From IMG/VR virus record IMGVR_UViG_3300042934_000495, positions 1 through 30,451 of that record: 30,451 nt of DNA; one strand, given 5' to 3'. The position numbers and the translations under genes are program-made. Origin of the DNA: a virus. The notes under the pieces are model-generated. The model had not been told where the DNA came from. It searched no databases and saw nothing but the letters and a program-made list of their open reading frames with translations. Of the stretch, positions 5,639-11,553 are shown one piece after another (position 1 is the stretch's first letter; every line of letters starts with the position of its first letter).

Positions 5639-7717
5639 CTATGTGCGCCGACGACCGTCGGCGAAGTGCAGCTGCTCACGGTAGCTCTGGCGCAGGCGGC
5701 CGGTCTGTTCGATGAACCCGCGCATCTTGGCCTGCGCCTGACGGACCTCGCGGGCGGCGCGTGCACGGTCGGCGTCGTTCATCGCGGTGACCTCGCGACG
5801 CTTCGCCGCGCGGATCTCCCGCTCGAGGCGACGCTGCTCAGCCCGTTCCTTCTCCGCCACAGGGTCGTACGTGGTGTCGTCCTGCGGGACGGTCAGCCCG
5901 GGCAGGTACGGGACGAGCCGGCACCGACAGTTGTGCACGATGATAGAATCGGCAGTGTACCAACCCCCAGCAGTCTGGAGATTGTAGACATGGCCAGCGA
6001 ACGAGTACCTGTCGACACTGACAATTTGATCCGCCGATACGAGGCCGGTGAGAGCGTCAAGCAGCTCGCCAGCGAGTACGGTGTCTCCCGCGATACGGTC
6101 AACCGCCGACTCCGAAACGCTGGTGTCGAGATCCGCGACCGCTCCGCCTCCATGTACAACCGCATGGCCCAGACCAGCCCCGAAGAGCGCGCCAGACTCT
6201 CCGCCGGCGCCCATGATGCCGTCCGAGGGATGACCCGCGTCGTGGAAGACCTGGAAAGCCGCGCCTACACGAAACAGCTCCGCCTCTCGCACGCGACCGA
6301 TGAGGAGATCGCTCTCGGCCGGGAGGTTCAGCAGCGTGGGCTGGCCGTCACTCCCCAGCAGGCCGTCGGCAAATACAACATCGACCTCGGCGTCGGCGGA
6401 ACCGTCGCCGTGGAAGTGTTCGGCGGCTCCTGGCATCGTGACGGCCGTCACATGGCGCGACTGCCGCAGCGCCTCGTAGACCTCGCCGATCGGGGCTTCA
6501 ACACCCTCATGATCTGGTCGGCTCGTGAGTGGCTTCTCGATGTCGCCCTGGTAGCTGACGAGGTCGTGGCCTTCCACGAGCGCACCCGCAGCGACCCAGC
6601 CTTCCGTCGTCAGTACCGGATGGTTTGGGGTGACGGTGAGTTCGCGACCGGCGGCTGTGTGGATGACGACGACCTGGCCCTCGTACCATCGAGAGTCGGC
6701 AGCCGAAACACCCGTCGGGGCTGACACCGGCACGAAGCCGGGGAAGCAGTTCGGGTGCCCCCAGCCGGCGTTGCGCGCCCCGTCGACGGTCGCCGCGACG
6801 TTCACCGTCACCGTGCCGTCATCGGTCGCGTGCGGCAGAGTCACTGGGCCGGGAGGCGTGCCGTCGGTGGAGAGGATCTTCCCCGCCCACTCGGCGCACT
6901 TCCGGCACGAGTCCAGGCCACGCACCACGGTGACGAGGCCGATGCCCGACTGCTGCATCCGCCACACGCCGGCGTCGTTGTACGCCCGGTTCACGGACGT
7001 GCGGCCCGCCATCTCCGCGTACGCGCCGATCGTCCACCGCCGGTCAGCCCGGTCGGTGAACGACGGGATGCCCTCGGCGAGGAACCGCTGAACCGCGGCC
7101 GCCTGCTGCACCTTCGACGTCGTGATGCCGAGGAGCGTGTTCGGCGAGTGCAGGGCGATGATCCGCTGGTACGCGTCCTGCGGGTAGCGGGTGATGCGCT
7201 GGTTCAGCACCTCGAGCCGCGACTGCAGGTTCAGGGCCACCATGGTGACCGCCTGCGCTGCTGCACCGCTCATCGTCGCCGCGGAGATCTGTGTGGTGGA
7301 GCCGATGAAGGGGAGCGGGACGACCGCCGACGGCTGACGCCCGGCAAGACCGAGCATCGCGGCGGCGGCCGCTTCCCCCTCTGTCGCCGCGACTTCGATG
7401 ACGCGGCGGGCCAAATCTGCGACGCGGAGCCGTTCGGCCATCGCGACCGCGATGCCCTGCAGTTCCCGGATCGCCTTCGCACGGTGCCCGGCGAGCTCCG
7501 CGAGGATCCGGTTCTGCCGGCGCCGCGCTTCGGGGGTAAGGCCGAACGTGGCGACGGGGAGGCCGGCGGCGATCTCCATGTCCCGGACTGCGCGGACCGC
7601 GATCTCGCGGATCAGTTCGTCCTCAGCCTCGCGGTACGCGCGGGCGAGCTCGAGCGACAGCTGCTCGATGATCTCCTCGACGGACTCGGCTTCGGGGTTC
7701 GGGACGAACAGCGCCAC
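5639..7717 (-). CDS. MuF-type minor head protein interrupted by an intein
   Basis: 692 residues as translated; removing the intein leaves 419. N-extein residues 1-323 include a helical part (residues 1-110) and the MuF-like core with NRAYNDAGVWRMQQSGIG and LDSCRKCAEWAGKI. The conserved end motif HPN/CRCRLVPYLPG is split by the intein between N323 and C597. The C-extein is a charged helical tail. MuF proteins sit inside or under the portal and act in head morphogenesis or DNA ejection. The start is GTG at 7717 behind a G-rich site. It follows the portal gene and three tiny membrane protein genes, a normal position for MuF. Function of the precursor needs splicing, because the HPNCRC motif is broken until then. 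Confidence 0.85.
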   Translation of the reverse strand: MALFVPNPEAESVEEIIEQLSLELARAYREAEDELIREIAVRAVRDMEIAAGLPVATFGLTPEARRRQNRILAELAGHRAKAIRELQGIAVAMAERLRVADLARRVIEVAATEGEAAAAAMLGLAGRQPSAVVPLPFIGSTTQISAATMSGAAAQAVTMVALNLQSRLEVLNQRITRYPQDAYQRIIALHSPNTLLGITTSKVQQAAAVQRFLAEGIPSFTDRADRRWTIGAYAEMAGRTSVNRAYNDAGVWRMQQSGIGLVTVVRGLDSCRKCAEWAGKILSTDGTPPGPVTLPHATDDGTVTVNVAATVDGARNAGWGHPNCFPGFVPVSAPTGVSAADSRWYEGQVVVIHTAAGRELTVTPNHPVLTTEGWVAAGALVEGHDLVSYQGDIEKPLTSRPDHEGVEAPIGEVYEALRQSRHVTAVTMPGAAEHFHGDGSADAEVDVVFADGLLGSDGQPTLLNLPAESDLLIGRVREAELFRVGAAFQVFHDAGHPSDGIMGAGGESGALFGAGLGHAVVHGGGAVADLDTSVSESAVDRIAGDTVLAGELLDALTGLVSADQIVSVDRYSFAGHVYNLQTAGGWYTADSIIVHNCRCRLVPYLPGLTVPQDDTTYDPVAEKERAEQRRLEREIRAAKRREVTAMNDADRARAAREVRQAQAKMRGFIEQTGRLRQSYREQLHFADGRRRT
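5930..6748 (-). mobile_element. Intein in the MuF-type head protein gene
   Basis: 273 codons. Splice junction residues are complete: Cys1 (codon 6746-6748), a block-B TPNH (residues 40-43, where T and H assist the first acyl shift), C-terminal block VYNLQTAGGWYTADSIIVHN, and the following extein Cys (codon 5927-5929). This is the class-1 cis-splicing set C1, TxxH, HN/C. Recognisable Hint segments are only about 65 residues at the N end and about 40 at the C end. The roughly 165 residues between them contain no LAGLIDADG-like repeats and read as the complement of the plus-strand endonuclease gene. Splicing would restore HPNCRC in the host protein. Confidence 0.9.
5990..6724 (+). CDS. Antisense homing-endonuclease-like protein inside the intein
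   Basis: 244 residues. A resolvase-type HTH occupies about residues 17-45 (SVKQLASEYGVSRDTVNRRL). A nuclease core follows with YNIDLGVGG and VEVFGGSWHRDGRH, then helix LPQRLVDLADRGF and strand NTLMIW. This matches the Vsr-like/very short patch PD-(D/E)xK layout used by free-standing intein- and intron-associated endonucleases; D132, E142 and H149 are candidate catalytic residues. The ATG at 5990 has GGAG 9 bases upstream (5977-5980), and a TAGAAT -10-like box lies at 5944-5949. Every base of the gene lies within the intein, on the other strand and in codon register with it. It would cut intein-free MuF alleles and drive homing; this is inferred from family and location. Confidence 0.85.
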   Translation: MASERVPVDTDNLIRRYEAGESVKQLASEYGVSRDTVNRRLRNAGVEIRDRSASMYNRMAQTSPEERARLSAGAHDAVRGMTRVVEDLESRAYTKQLRLSHATDEEIALGREVQQRGLAVTPQQAVGKYNIDLGVGGTVAVEVFGGSWHRDGRHMARLPQRLVDLADRGFNTLMIWSAREWLLDVALVADEVVAFHERTRSDPAFRRQYRMVWGDGEFATGGCVDDDDLALVPSRVGSRNTRRG

Positions 7718-7854: not shown

Positions 7855-7979
7855 TCGAAGTCGCCTTGCGCCTGCCGCCACAGCATGTAGAAGACCCACC
7901 CGATGATCAGCAGGCCCACCGCGAGGGCGATGCCGCCGAGGACGCTCAGTCCGATGAGGACGAGCAGCATCCCAGGCAT
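7851..7979 (-). CDS. Tiny membrane protein (42 aa)
   Basis: 42 residues, almost wholly one long hydrophobic segment (residues 3-33, with LLVLIGLSVLGGIALAVGLL) followed by a short polar tail WRQAQGDFE. The length would allow one long or two short helices, as in small holin-like proteins. The start ATG at 7979 lies one base after the stop of the upstream gene, and the stop overlaps the next gene. Function unknown. Confidence 0.6.
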   Translation of the reverse strand: MPGMLLVLIGLSVLGGIALAVGLLIIGWVFYMLWRQAQGDFE

Positions 7980-7980
7980 G

Positions 7981-8133
7981 TCATGACCTGCGTGCTCGGC
8001 GGGCTGTACGGTTCGCGTCGTGGACGATGTCGAACCAGGAGGGGTCAGGCGTCCGCAGTCCGCGGCCGCACCCGGCGAGGAGTGCGCATGAGACGGCGCC
8101 GAGCATCAGGATCACCACGCCGGCGCCGATCAC
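7981..8133 (-). CDS. Tiny membrane or lipoprotein-like protein (50 aa)
   Basis: GTG start overlapping the portal stop by four bases (GTGA, 8130-8133). Residues 2-21 are hydrophobic and end in LLAGC, which resembles a lipobox with Cys22 as the possible lipid site, but the N-terminus has no Lys or Arg before the hydrophobic part. The C-terminal half is polar and basic (TARRARRS). It could be a lipoprotein or a single-pass membrane protein. Confidence 0.6.
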   Translation of the reverse strand: MIGAGVVILMLGAVSCALLAGCGRGLRTPDPSWFDIVHDANRTARRARRS

Positions 8134-9731
8134 GGCTCCACATCCTGATCCTGGTCGTCGTCGGCGTCGTCCGGGTCGTCGCCGTCGAACGCGGCCGGGT
8201 CAGCGACCGGAGGGCGGTCAGCACGAATCGCGGCGACCTCGTCGCGCACCTGGTCGTCGTCCCAGTCAGGGTTCGCGCGGCGCACCTTCTGCTCGGTGGA
8301 GATCGCCCCGGCGGCATCCAGCAGGGAGAGCGTCTGCGCCAGCTGCAGCGGCGACTCCTGCGACGTGTCCGGGAACTCGACGGTGATGTCGTCGTACCGG
8401 CCGCCACCCTTACCAGGGAACAGGATCCCGTCGAGCTCCATCGCGACCGACGCCTGCCGTGCGATCGCCGAACGGTCGCGGAGGATCTTCTTGTCGCGCG
8501 TGCGCTCCGACGCGGACTTCCGGTCCGACACCTCGGTCGCGGTCATCGCACCGTCGCCGCCGCCGGCGTAGTCGCCCCATGCGGACGGGGAGAACCCGGC
8601 CTTGCGGAGGATCTCGCGGTACACGGCCGCCGCTGTACGCTCGTGCTCCTCGACACGGATGTCGAACTGCACCTTGTCGATCGTCATCTGCGAAGGGTCA
8701 CCGGGCGTGTTCAGGCCGGCGAAGATCTCGCGGCCAGCGTCGAACGATGCGCCCACGCCGACCGCGTTGATGTCGAGCATCGCGTCGGGCACGAGGATCT
8801 TGCCGGCGCCGAGGCGAAGGTCACGCATCCACGAGGAGAACGTCTCGTCGAGCCAGTCGAACAACGGGTGCAGCTGCGCGAAGTCGGAGCGCCCCGTGTA
8901 CGCGAGCGGGCCCATCTTCCGCCATGCCGCGGTGGGCATGTTCGGGTTGTACGACGCGGTCAGCCGGTCCAGGCTCGTCTCGATGAGCGACTGGTCGTTC
9001 ACGAGGGTGGCGAAGACCGCGGTCTCGGGACGGTCGTTCAGCGACACCCGGCGGCCGAGGTTCTTCTCAGTCCCCTGGAACAGGGCGTGCTCGATGTAGC
9101 CGATGCCGTGGTGCTCGAGGTGCCGCCAGTACGTGGAGCCGTCCCGGTACTCGGTCCACATCGTGAGCTCGACCATGCGGCCACTGCGGAACGTGGGGAT
9201 GACCACGTCGGCGGCGACGGTCTCCAACCAGACGTGATCCTCGACAGCGACATCCCAGCGGGTGACGAGCACCGCGGCACCGAGCGCCGACTTCTGCTCA
9301 CCCATCTGGTTGTACGTGGCGTGCGCGTCGTCGGAGTTCGCGATCTTGTCGAGACGAGCCTGCGCCTGCTTCGACGCGTCCTTCGTCTGCCCGTCCTGCT
9401 TCTCCGGCAGGCCGACTGCGGGCGGCTCCGCGAACACCAGGTCGGATGCGAGGGTCGCGAGGTCGGCGGCGGCCGGCACGTGAATGCGGGAGCGGTTCTC
9501 ACCGGCCGGGACGGGGCGACCCCAGAACATGCGGGATGCGGCGCCGACGATCCCGCCACGCATCGGCACACCACGGCGCTGATGCGTCGCGTCGCCCTGC
9601 GCCTCACGCCGGTACAGCTTCTCGAGCCGGTCGGTGTCACCCGTCCACCAGGCTTCGTTCTCGTCGAACGCGCGGTACGCGAAGCCCCACGGCTCAGGGA
9701 GCCACGGTGTGTTCTGTTCGGGGATCGGCAC
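8130..9731 (-). CDS. Portal protein
   Basis: 533 residues, the common length of SPP1 gp6-like portals. It directly follows the terminase large subunit gene. It has the Arg/Trp-rich N-terminus, a mid region with VEDHVWLETVAADVVIPTF, a long helical part around the expected crown/stem, and a very acidic C-terminus (DDPDDADDDQDQD). The portal is the dodecameric ring at one head vertex through which DNA is packaged and released, and it docks the terminase. The start at 9731 follows a GAGAGGGGACC stretch. Confidence 0.85.
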   Translation of the reverse strand: MPIPEQNTPWLPEPWGFAYRAFDENEAWWTGDTDRLEKLYRREAQGDATHQRRGVPMRGGIVGAASRMFWGRPVPAGENRSRIHVPAAADLATLASDLVFAEPPAVGLPEKQDGQTKDASKQAQARLDKIANSDDAHATYNQMGEQKSALGAAVLVTRWDVAVEDHVWLETVAADVVIPTFRSGRMVELTMWTEYRDGSTYWRHLEHHGIGYIEHALFQGTEKNLGRRVSLNDRPETAVFATLVNDQSLIETSLDRLTASYNPNMPTAAWRKMGPLAYTGRSDFAQLHPLFDWLDETFSSWMRDLRLGAGKILVPDAMLDINAVGVGASFDAGREIFAGLNTPGDPSQMTIDKVQFDIRVEEHERTAAAVYREILRKAGFSPSAWGDYAGGGDGAMTATEVSDRKSASERTRDKKILRDRSAIARQASVAMELDGILFPGKGGGRYDDITVEFPDTSQESPLQLAQTLSLLDAAGAISTEQKVRRANPDWDDDQVRDEVAAIRADRPPVADPAAFDGDDPDDADDDQDQDVEP

Positions 9732-9743
9732 GGGGGTCCCCTC

Positions 9744-11045
9744 TCAGGCGGCGAGTTCGAGCATCGGCTGCCAGTAGCCGACGGTGGAGTGTGTGATGTA
9801 GCGGCCGCCGTCGAGGTAGTGGTCGTCTTCTTTCACGACTTCGTCTTCGCCCTCGGCGGTGGCTTTCTCGTCCCACCGGTACTCGGTGACCTCGGACTGC
9901 CAGCCCTCGCAGCGGTCGGTGACGACCATGCGGGGTTCGTCGCCGTCGAGGAGGTTCGCGATCGTCGCGATCCCCTTCAGCACGTCGTTGTCCGCCGGCC
10001 ACGGTGCGAGCCCCGTGCCGCGGAGATCCTGGTGCAACTGCGTACGGAACGACGCGGCCGCAGGGTCGAGCATCAGGAAGCGGGGACGGAGGCCGTCAGG
10101 TTCCGGGTGGTGCTGCTCACCCAGCCAGCCACGGAAGCGGCGGGAGAGCTCGGAGTCGGTGAGGCGGAGGCCGTTGTTCTTCTCGTCCTTCGAGTTGTAG
10201 CCCCACTCGTCCATCAGGATCAGACGCGGCTTCTCTTCGGCGGTGACACCGAGCATGAGCGCCGTGGTTGCGTTCGTGGTGCCGTAGTCCATGCCGATGC
10301 CCATGATCTCCTGCATGCGCGGCAGCGACGCCCAGGGGATGACGTGCTTCTCGGGGTCCCACATGGGGTAGACGGCGCCCTCAGCGTTCGTCCACTCGCC
10401 CTTGATGAACCGGTCGTAGAAGACGCCGCTGTACGAGCGTTTCATGCGGTCGATGTACGACTGCTCGAGCGTGGGGTTGTCGAGCATCGTGAAGTGGAAG
10501 TGGATCAGGTCGACCGCGTCGGCCTTGAGGATCCAGGACTTCCGCATCCAGTGGTTCCGGGATGCGGGGTTCATCGTCGCGAGGAGCCGCGAGCCCTTCA
10601 CCCGGAGGCGGGTGATCAGCATGTTCCAGAACACCTCGGGCAGCAGGGTCGCCTCGTCGACGTACGCCAGCGCCACCGTCGCACCCTGAATGCGGCCGAC
10701 GGATTCCGCGTTGTGCGCGCCGACGACCATGACCTCACGGCCGAGGATGATCGCCTTCGTCGCCCCCGGCGTGTACACGATGGATGCGGCGACGAGCGAG
10801 CCGAACAGGCCAGGATCCTGCAGCGGAACGAACACGTTCTGGTACACCGTCTGCAGCGTGCGCCCGACGATCAGGATCAGCCCGTTCCTCGGCGCGACGC
10901 GCACAGCGAGGAGGAACGCGATCAGCGACGCGATCGTCTTCCCCGCCGACACCGACCCAGACCACAGCGCGAGCGTGCGCTGCTTCGACGCGGACACCGA
11001 CAGGATCTGCTTCCGCGACAGCAGCCGCTCAGCGTTACCCAGCAT
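9744..11045 (-). CDS. Terminase large subunit
   Basis: 433 residues from the ATG at 11045. ATPase domain: Walker A GSVSAGKT (residues 30-37), Walker B ALAYVDEA (125-132) and the coupling motif LLATMNP (154-160). RNase H-like nuclease domain: GMDYGTT with D253, LMLDPAA with D327, and a late DHYLDGGRY with D409/D412, giving the acidic triad. It pumps DNA into the procapsid through the portal and cuts concatemers. The ATG overlaps the end of the small subunit by 11 bases. A longer in-frame extension exists but is made of basic out-of-frame-like residues. Confidence 0.93.
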   Translation of the reverse strand: MLGNAERLLSRKQILSVSASKQRTLALWSGSVSAGKTIASLIAFLLAVRVAPRNGLILIVGRTLQTVYQNVFVPLQDPGLFGSLVAASIVYTPGATKAIILGREVMVVGAHNAESVGRIQGATVALAYVDEATLLPEVFWNMLITRLRVKGSRLLATMNPASRNHWMRKSWILKADAVDLIHFHFTMLDNPTLEQSYIDRMKRSYSGVFYDRFIKGEWTNAEGAVYPMWDPEKHVIPWASLPRMQEIMGIGMDYGTTNATTALMLGVTAEEKPRLILMDEWGYNSKDEKNNGLRLTDSELSRRFRGWLGEQHHPEPDGLRPRFLMLDPAAASFRTQLHQDLRGTGLAPWPADNDVLKGIATIANLLDGDEPRMVVTDRCEGWQSEVTEYRWDEKATAEGEDEVVKEDDHYLDGGRYITHSTVGYWQPMLELAA

Positions 11046-11553
11046 CCGCCGGCGTCTCATCCTCAGCGCGAATCGCGTCCGCCGCGAGCTCGAGCGCCGC
11101 CGCGAACGTGTCGAGCACGCCAGCAGCACCATCCACAGGACTCGCGTCCTTCTCGACGATGCGGGTCAGCTTGTCGAACACGATCGCCGCAGACGTGATG
11201 ATCGTTCGTCGAGCGTCCACGGGCACGCTGTCGAGCTCCTGCGAGTTGAACGTGTTGTCCTTGCCGCCGAAGTTGTACACCGTGAACGGCCCATCGAGCA
11301 TGTCGAGCATGTCGTTCGCCGCGACGTCGAGGCGCTCCGCGAGCCGCTGCCGGCGCTCGGTCAGATCGACGCTGCGAGCCTCTTGTGCGCTTTTTGTCGC
11401 TGACCGGTCAAAGGCGCGGTCGTTGTCGGCGCAGATGTTGGAGACGGATCCGGCGCTGATGCCGGTCTGTCGGGCGATCTCGTTGCGGGCGAGTCCCTCG
11501 GCGTGGAGACGGAGGACTTCGTCGCGCTGTGCGTCGGTGAGCTTGCCAGCCAT
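11035..11553 (-). CDS. Terminase small subunit
   Basis: 172 residues. An N-terminal HTH (DEVLRLHAEGLARNEIARQT, then GISAGSVSNICADND) is followed by a helical oligomerisation region. It recognises the packaging site and recruits the large subunit encoded just downstream. The ATG at 11553 has a GAGGTGA site 7 bases upstream. It is the first gene of the late operon after a gap of about 125 bases that contains its leader. Confidence 0.85.
   Translation of the reverse strand: MAGKLTDAQRDEVLRLHAEGLARNEIARQTGISAGSVSNICADNDRAFDRSATKSAQEARSVDLTERRQRLAERLDVAANDMLDMLDGPFTVYNFGGKDNTFNSQELDSVPVDARRTIITSAAIVFDKLTRIVEKDASPVDGAAGVLDTFAAALELAADAIRAEDETPADAG

Follow-up and report, generated by a model that had tools for sequence, protein, structure and literature searches.

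A putative homing endonuclease gene nested antisense and in codon register within a mobile intein of phage MuF genes

Nuclear rDNA group I introns can carry endonuclease genes in antisense orientation. In phages, fractured genes are reportedly found (Dassa et al. 2009 are said to have described them) in which split inteins flank a freestanding Vsr-like endonuclease gene, and we regard these as the nearest intein relatives of the arrangement analyzed here. The nearest published case that we found is the ShiLan-type insertion, a hidden HNH endonuclease on the same strand but out of frame, which has no splicing domains, leaves the host frame open and is not an intein (PMC11855218). We found no description of an antisense or opposite-strand nuclease in an intein in the open-access literature searched, which is not proof of novelty. 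Here we examine such a nuclease gene in a phage capsid gene; both parts belong to known families and, as far as we can tell, their combination is new.

The window is the whole 30,451-nucleotide stretch of viral DNA that was analyzed (IMG/VR record IMGVR_UViG_3300042934_000495). The minus-strand frame of its MuF gene contains no stop across its full length, 5639-7717, and the features discussed below are arranged within it as follows (a slash marks the insertion point).

5639-7717, minus strand: MuF / phage minor capsid protein 2 gene, an uninterrupted 692-aa precursor of extein plus intein (PF06152, 1.1e-30; phrog_581, 1.9e-54)
5930-6748, minus strand: class-1 intein of 273 aa, inserted at HPN/CRC (sequence profiles, PDB inteins down to 7e-10, Foldseek)
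5930-5989, minus strand: intein C-terminal blocks F/G (VYNLQT...IIVHN), outside the nuclease reading frame
5977-5980, plus strand: Shine-Dalgarno (SD) sequence GGAG of the nuclease gene, 9 nt upstream of its ATG and opposite the block F codons for N-L-Q
5990-6724, plus strand: homing-type endonuclease gene, 244 aa, ATG at 5990 and TGA at 6722-6724, antisense to the intein in codon register (AF2 model and 3r3p match)
6017-6118, plus strand: helix-turn-helix DNA-binding domain, nuclease residues 10-43 (profile and AF2)
6299-6592, plus strand: EDxHD / PD-(D/E)xK-like catalytic core, nuclease residues 104-201
6305-6307, 6383-6385 and 6413-6415, plus strand: near-invariant nuclease residues E106, D132 and E142, respectively; Y129 and N130 are likewise near invariant
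6404-6415, minus strand: intein FHGD motif, residues 112-115, facing nuclease VAVE (139-142), with both strands constrained
6611-6658, plus strand: nuclease C-terminal beta hairpin, residues 208-223, opposite intein block B (AF2, permutation test)
6620-6631, minus strand: intein block B TPNH, residues 40-43 (TIGR01445)

The initial annotation, made from the sequence alone, had proposed an intact class-1 intein on the minus strand, a full plus-strand gene inside it with its own ATG and GGAG, and codon boundaries shared by the two strands. The intein coordinates, 5930-6748, were exact, and its blocks, profile and predicted fold agreed with the proposal; the plus-strand gene at 5990-6724 and the shared boundaries held to the base, the ATG being the complement of intein His253 in block F (GHVYNLQ) and the TGA that of Ser9.

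On the minus strand, the product matched Phage_min_cap2 (1e-30) and Intein_splicing in profile searches. Its motifs run from C1 in FPGF through T40-P-N-H43 to H272-N273 with a +1 Cys, flanked by HPN/CRC, so that Cys1, the block B TxxH, the C-terminal His-Asn and the +1 Cys expected of a class-1 (Hint) intein are all in place, as they are in the homologues examined. In the AF2 model the splicing halves mostly have pLDDT >90, residues 85-126 form a small, partly folded module and residues 129-221 are disordered; the top Foldseek match was the Mtu RecA intein (prob 1.00), with RadA inteins also among the top matches. The predicted fold is that of a Hint splicing domain. Efficient splicing is only assumed, because the model has this disordered middle and there are no splicing data; some block residues deviate, for example Asn for Asp in block F.

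The plus-strand product had been assigned a helix-turn-helix and a Vsr/PD-(D/E)xK-like domain, an identity that was supported by profile matches to HTH_7/HTH_58 (∼1e-6) and REase_MTES_1575 (2e-8) and, with a profile built from 40 homologues, by PDB matches to I-Bth0305I (3r3p, E 2.2e-6) and the endonuclease-like protein 3hrl (1e-5). The AF2 model (mean pLDDT 89) shows a helix-strand-strand-strand-helix-strand core bearing E106, D132 and E142, and its first-ranked Foldseek match was again I-Bth0305I (prob 1.00, E 0.0095); the whole-model TM-score was low because the 3r3p entry holds the catalytic domain only. Of the residues that may form the EDxHD signature, which were not matched one by one to 3r3p, E106, D132 and E142 are near invariant among homologues and H149 is present in 34/59. 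By profile and predicted fold, the nuclease meets the description of the I-Bth0305I / EDxHD family, an assignment that rests on the catalytic domain, and its cleavage activity is inferred. Some relatives (L017, L019, L020, L021, L042, L043 and others; L numbers denote related loci) encode nucleases of ∼300 aa instead of 220-250, with an extra N-terminal stretch resembling a second HTH. The inteins that host these are ∼325 aa instead of the usual ∼270, and both proteins thus lengthen together.

A tblastn search with the nuclease matched 124 phage records, 103 of them over ≥80% of the nuclease length. The first twelve phage loci examined have the nuclease antisense within the MuF gene, with L022 as the sole exception. 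Searches of viral contigs and genomes, for which nuclease subgroup profiles were used since a single all-nuclease profile was too divergent, added loci from Actinobacteria, Acidobacteria, Firmicutes and Chloroflexi. The set comprises ∼78 related loci of 34-71% GC with both frames kept, from Actinobacteria, Proteobacteria, Firmicutes, Chloroflexi, Acidobacteria and a Helicobacter prophage, and nearly every related locus that we examined, whether in a phage, a viral contig or a genome, has the antisense architecture. In the window and the nested loci scored, the minus frame is contiguous across the nuclease, and the split intein that defines a fractured gene is absent. Exteins with Pfam matches are mostly MuF, minor capsid 2 or a portal-MuF fusion; L071 and L080 have no head-protein match. 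Other domains occur in the intein-bearing frame of L068 (portal + MuF), L071 (a downstream alpha/beta hydrolase) and L075 (DUF6883). None of the nested-locus records examined annotates the nuclease gene. Phage records H17, H25 and H107 label the MuF gene that contains the intein "NAD+--asparagine ADP-ribosyltransferase." In L084 (Salmonella phage GE_vB_HIL, an UNVERIFIED record) the nuclease is broken across several frames, by sequencing error or real decay.

We then considered the start of the nuclease gene. That its ATG faces His is trivial, since ATG always does, but the fixed position of the ATG is not: in most of 52 scored homologues, the first in-frame ATG lies directly before the block F "VYNL." An SD-like sequence accompanies this ATG in 37/52, and the Leu codon overlapping the SD is CTC or CTT in 43/52, which the plus strand reads as GAG or AAG. 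SD and start persist also in loci whose overlapping intein residues differ. At four further loci the start position lacks an ATG, and GTG may be used instead.

Given the shared register, the intein frame stays open only if the nuclease avoids in-frame TTA, CTA and TCA. For 33 nested loci, mutually <50% identical, we derived the expected number of antisense stop codons from the codon usage of each locus's other reading frames; 177.5 were expected and none was observed (log10 P ∼ -89, a value from a codon-usage model and not a phylogenetic test). The remaining two antisense frames average 9 and 20 stops. Except in L022, no locus scored has an in-register stop in the matched nuclease stretch, and a fuller count gave zero stops in 58 nested loci. 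Such avoidance had been thought easy at high GC; this view did not survive, as the arrangement persists at 34-49% GC with strict avoidance of TTA, CTA and TCA, and the 34% GC Helicobacter prophage (L023) has no stop where 10.7 were expected. For the window locus alone, the probability of no antisense stop is 0.08, and the window, at 66% GC, holds other long antisense ORFs, probably spurious ones; for these two reasons the antisense ORF alone would be unconvincing as a gene. One of the open frames in the window, of 1110 aa at 7866-11198 on the plus strand and opposite a portal-type gene, is most likely a high-GC artefact.

We found a single family member outside an intein, L022 of Acinetobacter phage P1068 (OQ689089.1, 2830-3723, plus strand), a free nuclease gene convergent with the 3′ end of an intein-free MuF gene. 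Here 11.6 antisense stops were expected and 12 observed. In a maximum-likelihood tree, L022 falls inside the nested family as sister to L042 (99/90). Because it nests in the antisense family, neighbors an intein-free MuF gene and has stops at the expected level, L022 is most likely an escapee from an intein in which the antisense constraint has lapsed, as judged from sequence comparison; the direction of this escape is only inferred, since the tree was midpoint rooted.

To ask which strand is constrained where, we shuffled synonymous codons within each gene across 33 loci, with phylogeny handled only by the requirement for <50% identity. Over codons 9-135 of the nuclease, plus-strand conservation is far above what the minus strand explains, and minus-strand conservation is about what the plus strand alone predicts. 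At codons 138-142 there is an excess on both strands, V/I-A-V-E on the plus and F/L-H-G-D-G on the minus. Codons 193-234 are constrained mainly on the minus strand (blocks N4 and B), with an independent plus-strand signal at Tyr209 and Gly216. Seen from the intein, conservation at residues ∼87-128, with the "VF" and "FHGDG" motifs, exceeds what the nuclease protein explains. Among the window's close relatives, the ratio of differences at codon position 1 to those at position 3 in the minus frame is 0.63 in one extein, 0.17 at intein residues 1-9, 0.48 at 10-77, 1.21 at 78-128, 1.44 at 129-252, 0.14 from 254 to the end and 0.54 in the other extein, and in this group the switch coincides with the start and stop of the nuclease gene. 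The trend is alike in the Pseudomonas and gut groups and weaker in the Klebsiella group, for which the intein end was mis-set in the calculation. Second codon positions, at which changes alter both proteins, are almost frozen (5/279 single changes in the core). Purifying selection thus acts on both frames across their common DNA, as required of a true antisense overlapping pair. The proposal of the gene would have failed had plus-strand rates in related inteins lacked protein constraint, or had relatives kept the intein but not a conserved plus frame; plus-strand constraint was present, and the related nested loci keep both frames.

The N-terminal half of the nuclease faces a disordered, nearly unconstrained intein linker, and in ∼105 codons (nuclease 117-223, intein ∼31-137) both strands encode folded, conserved protein. 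The initial annotation had regarded the whole central linker as free of protein-level constraint, which stands for intein residues ∼129-252 only; the permutation test contradicts it for ∼87-128, and the nuclease C terminus overlaps blocks B and N4. Two loci, L016 and L023, have no FHGD, which suggested that this motif might be a bare shadow of VAVE, an idea that we rejected since the intein strand constrains codon choice at 138-142. No Pfam or PDB family related to the FHGD module was found outside the intein-nuclease element. A search of 395 genomes of the L076 class gave two new matches, both also carrying the antisense nuclease, and searches of the L077 and L080 classes added no further matches (the last without a positive control).

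Mobility of the element was assessed from filled and empty sites. The MuF gene of BPS11Q3 matched 386 phage records, 58 of them across ≥80%, and many others listed match as two pieces that skip the intein; BPS11Q3 and PBSE191 form a precise filled/empty pair. The inteins of Escherichia coli phage Snoke and Salmonella phages LP31 and sidste are 95-97% identical, whereas their exteins are mostly 54-75% identical away from the site. In the upstream extein, the 60 nt (LP31) or 120 nt (sidste) adjoining the intein are 88-95% identical, yet in those 60 nt LP31 is only 65% identical to the intein-free PBSE191, to which it is near-identical elsewhere. This pattern matches what break-driven gene conversion (co-conversion) is expected to leave behind. 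Sporadic presence, precise empty sites and transfer with co-conversion, the marks of a mobile intein, are thus all met, and the nuclease ORF is intact in 6/6 Jersey/Kaguna inteins checked. In Escherichia phage fEg-Eco06 (L081, 869-2806, plus strand), an intein with an antisense nuclease occupies a second MuF site, T/CRARDG instead of HPN/CRS.

Taken together, we hold with high confidence that this is a mobile intein with an opposite-strand, in-register homing endonuclease, which has a gene and a ribosome-binding site of its own. The MuF precursor would be translated from the minus strand through the intein, which would splice itself out, and a separate plus-strand transcript would yield the HTH + I-Bth0305I-like nuclease. 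Most likely, the nuclease would cut the conserved insertion site in MuF alleles that lack the intein, carried by co-infecting phages, and repair templated by the occupied copy would install intein and nuclease together; separate expression would decouple the nuclease from the capsid gene. Sequence and its comparison establish both frames, both families, selection on two strands, in-register conservation and mobility of the unit, and splicing, plus-strand transcription, cleavage and the cleavage site are inferred, with no transcript, protein, splicing or cleavage data. The nuclease gene may be hard to lose, we infer, because frameshifts would strike both proteins.

We weighed other readings of the same data. 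High-GC windows do yield long in-register antisense ORFs, such as that opposite the portal gene, and the plus-strand ORF could be a spurious, GC-driven shadow of the intein that encodes nothing; but independent nuclease and HTH homology, a confident fold, conservation at 34-49% GC, a conserved SD, and codons 9-135, where the plus strand is constrained and the minus strand is the passive shadow, leave next to no room for this. Scarcely more credible is that a nuclease gene merely landed in MuF, with a minus frame that does not work as an intein. The central part of the intein does consist of antisense translation with predicted disorder, yet all splicing blocks are present, exteins run on both sides, the fold matches inteins, the terminal blocks are under minus-strand constraint, and the nested loci have no in-register stops despite the many expected.

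It is improbable, though harder to dismiss, that the nuclease is not or is no longer the mover of the intein, and that it has another role (competitor exclusion, regulation) while another nuclease drives mobility. Freestanding homing-type nucleases can act on neighboring genes, L022 stands free beside an intein-free MuF gene, and cleavage data are lacking; set against this are the intact ORF in the six Jersey/Kaguna inteins, unit-wise transfer with co-conversion, the second MuF site and the strong selection on active-site residues. The alternative that retains the most weight, while still unlikely, concerns codons 138-142 alone, where RTC GCC GTG GAR is almost fixed and could reflect a DNA or RNA signal rather than two overlapping proteins. 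The positions that do vary are, however, ones where a change is silent on the strand concerned: at codon 138 it is the intein wobble base that differs, with the intein Gly mostly kept, codon 139 alternates G/A (Asp kept, Val/Ile) and codon 142 A/G (Glu kept, Phe/Leu). Moreover, where the nested sister L042 has GTC GCC GTG GAA, the escapee L022 has GTG GCG CTG GAA, which preserves VALE on the nuclease strand and loses HGD on the intein strand.

Returning to two overlapping proteins, we favor, with some reservation, the view that intein and nuclease are mutually overprinted, parts of each having arisen as the antisense reading of the other and having since become required. If so, a single DNA segment would encode two folded, conserved proteins codon against codon, with the active-site VAVE of the nuclease opposite the FHGD module and the nuclease hairpin opposite block B, and a selfish nuclease would be tied to a frame whose loss the phage could not tolerate. 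The element is a widespread mobile unit. It is also a clear natural example of both strands coding for protein in register over a long stretch, an arrangement conserved across bacterial phyla, and the escaped copy with its decayed antisense frame serves as an internal negative control. Its architecture, which decouples nuclease expression from the host capsid gene, offers a new route to the origin of intein-endonuclease partnerships and a testable model for the birth and constraint of overlapping reading frames, and mutations silent on one strand make the role of each protein experimentally separable.

As in the fractured genes, one insertion site in a phage gene holds both an intein and a separate gene for a Vsr-like nuclease; there the nuclease gene splits the intein, whereas here the intein is contiguous and the nuclease lies on the opposite strand. 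As in large inteins with in-frame LAGLIDADG or HNH domains, splicing domain and homing endonuclease form one mobile unit at a conserved position, but the endonuclease is translated separately from the other strand and is not an intein domain. Group I introns with antisense endonuclease genes share a nuclease gene opposite the host gene strand, but the intron is untranslated and so there is no double coding. The nuclease resembles the I-Bth0305I / EDxHD (Vsr-like) family in its catalytic domain, by profile and fold, in its separate DNA-binding module and in its phage setting (PMC3943268); I-Bth0305I is a mobile intron protein, whereas this gene lies antisense within a contiguous intein, with its C terminus encoded opposite intein blocks. 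In the ShiLan-type insertion, as here, the insertion is open in the host frame while an alternative frame conceals a homing endonuclease (PMC11855218); the present locus departs from the definition of that type in having its nuclease on the opposite strand of an insertion with full splicing blocks (PMC11855218).
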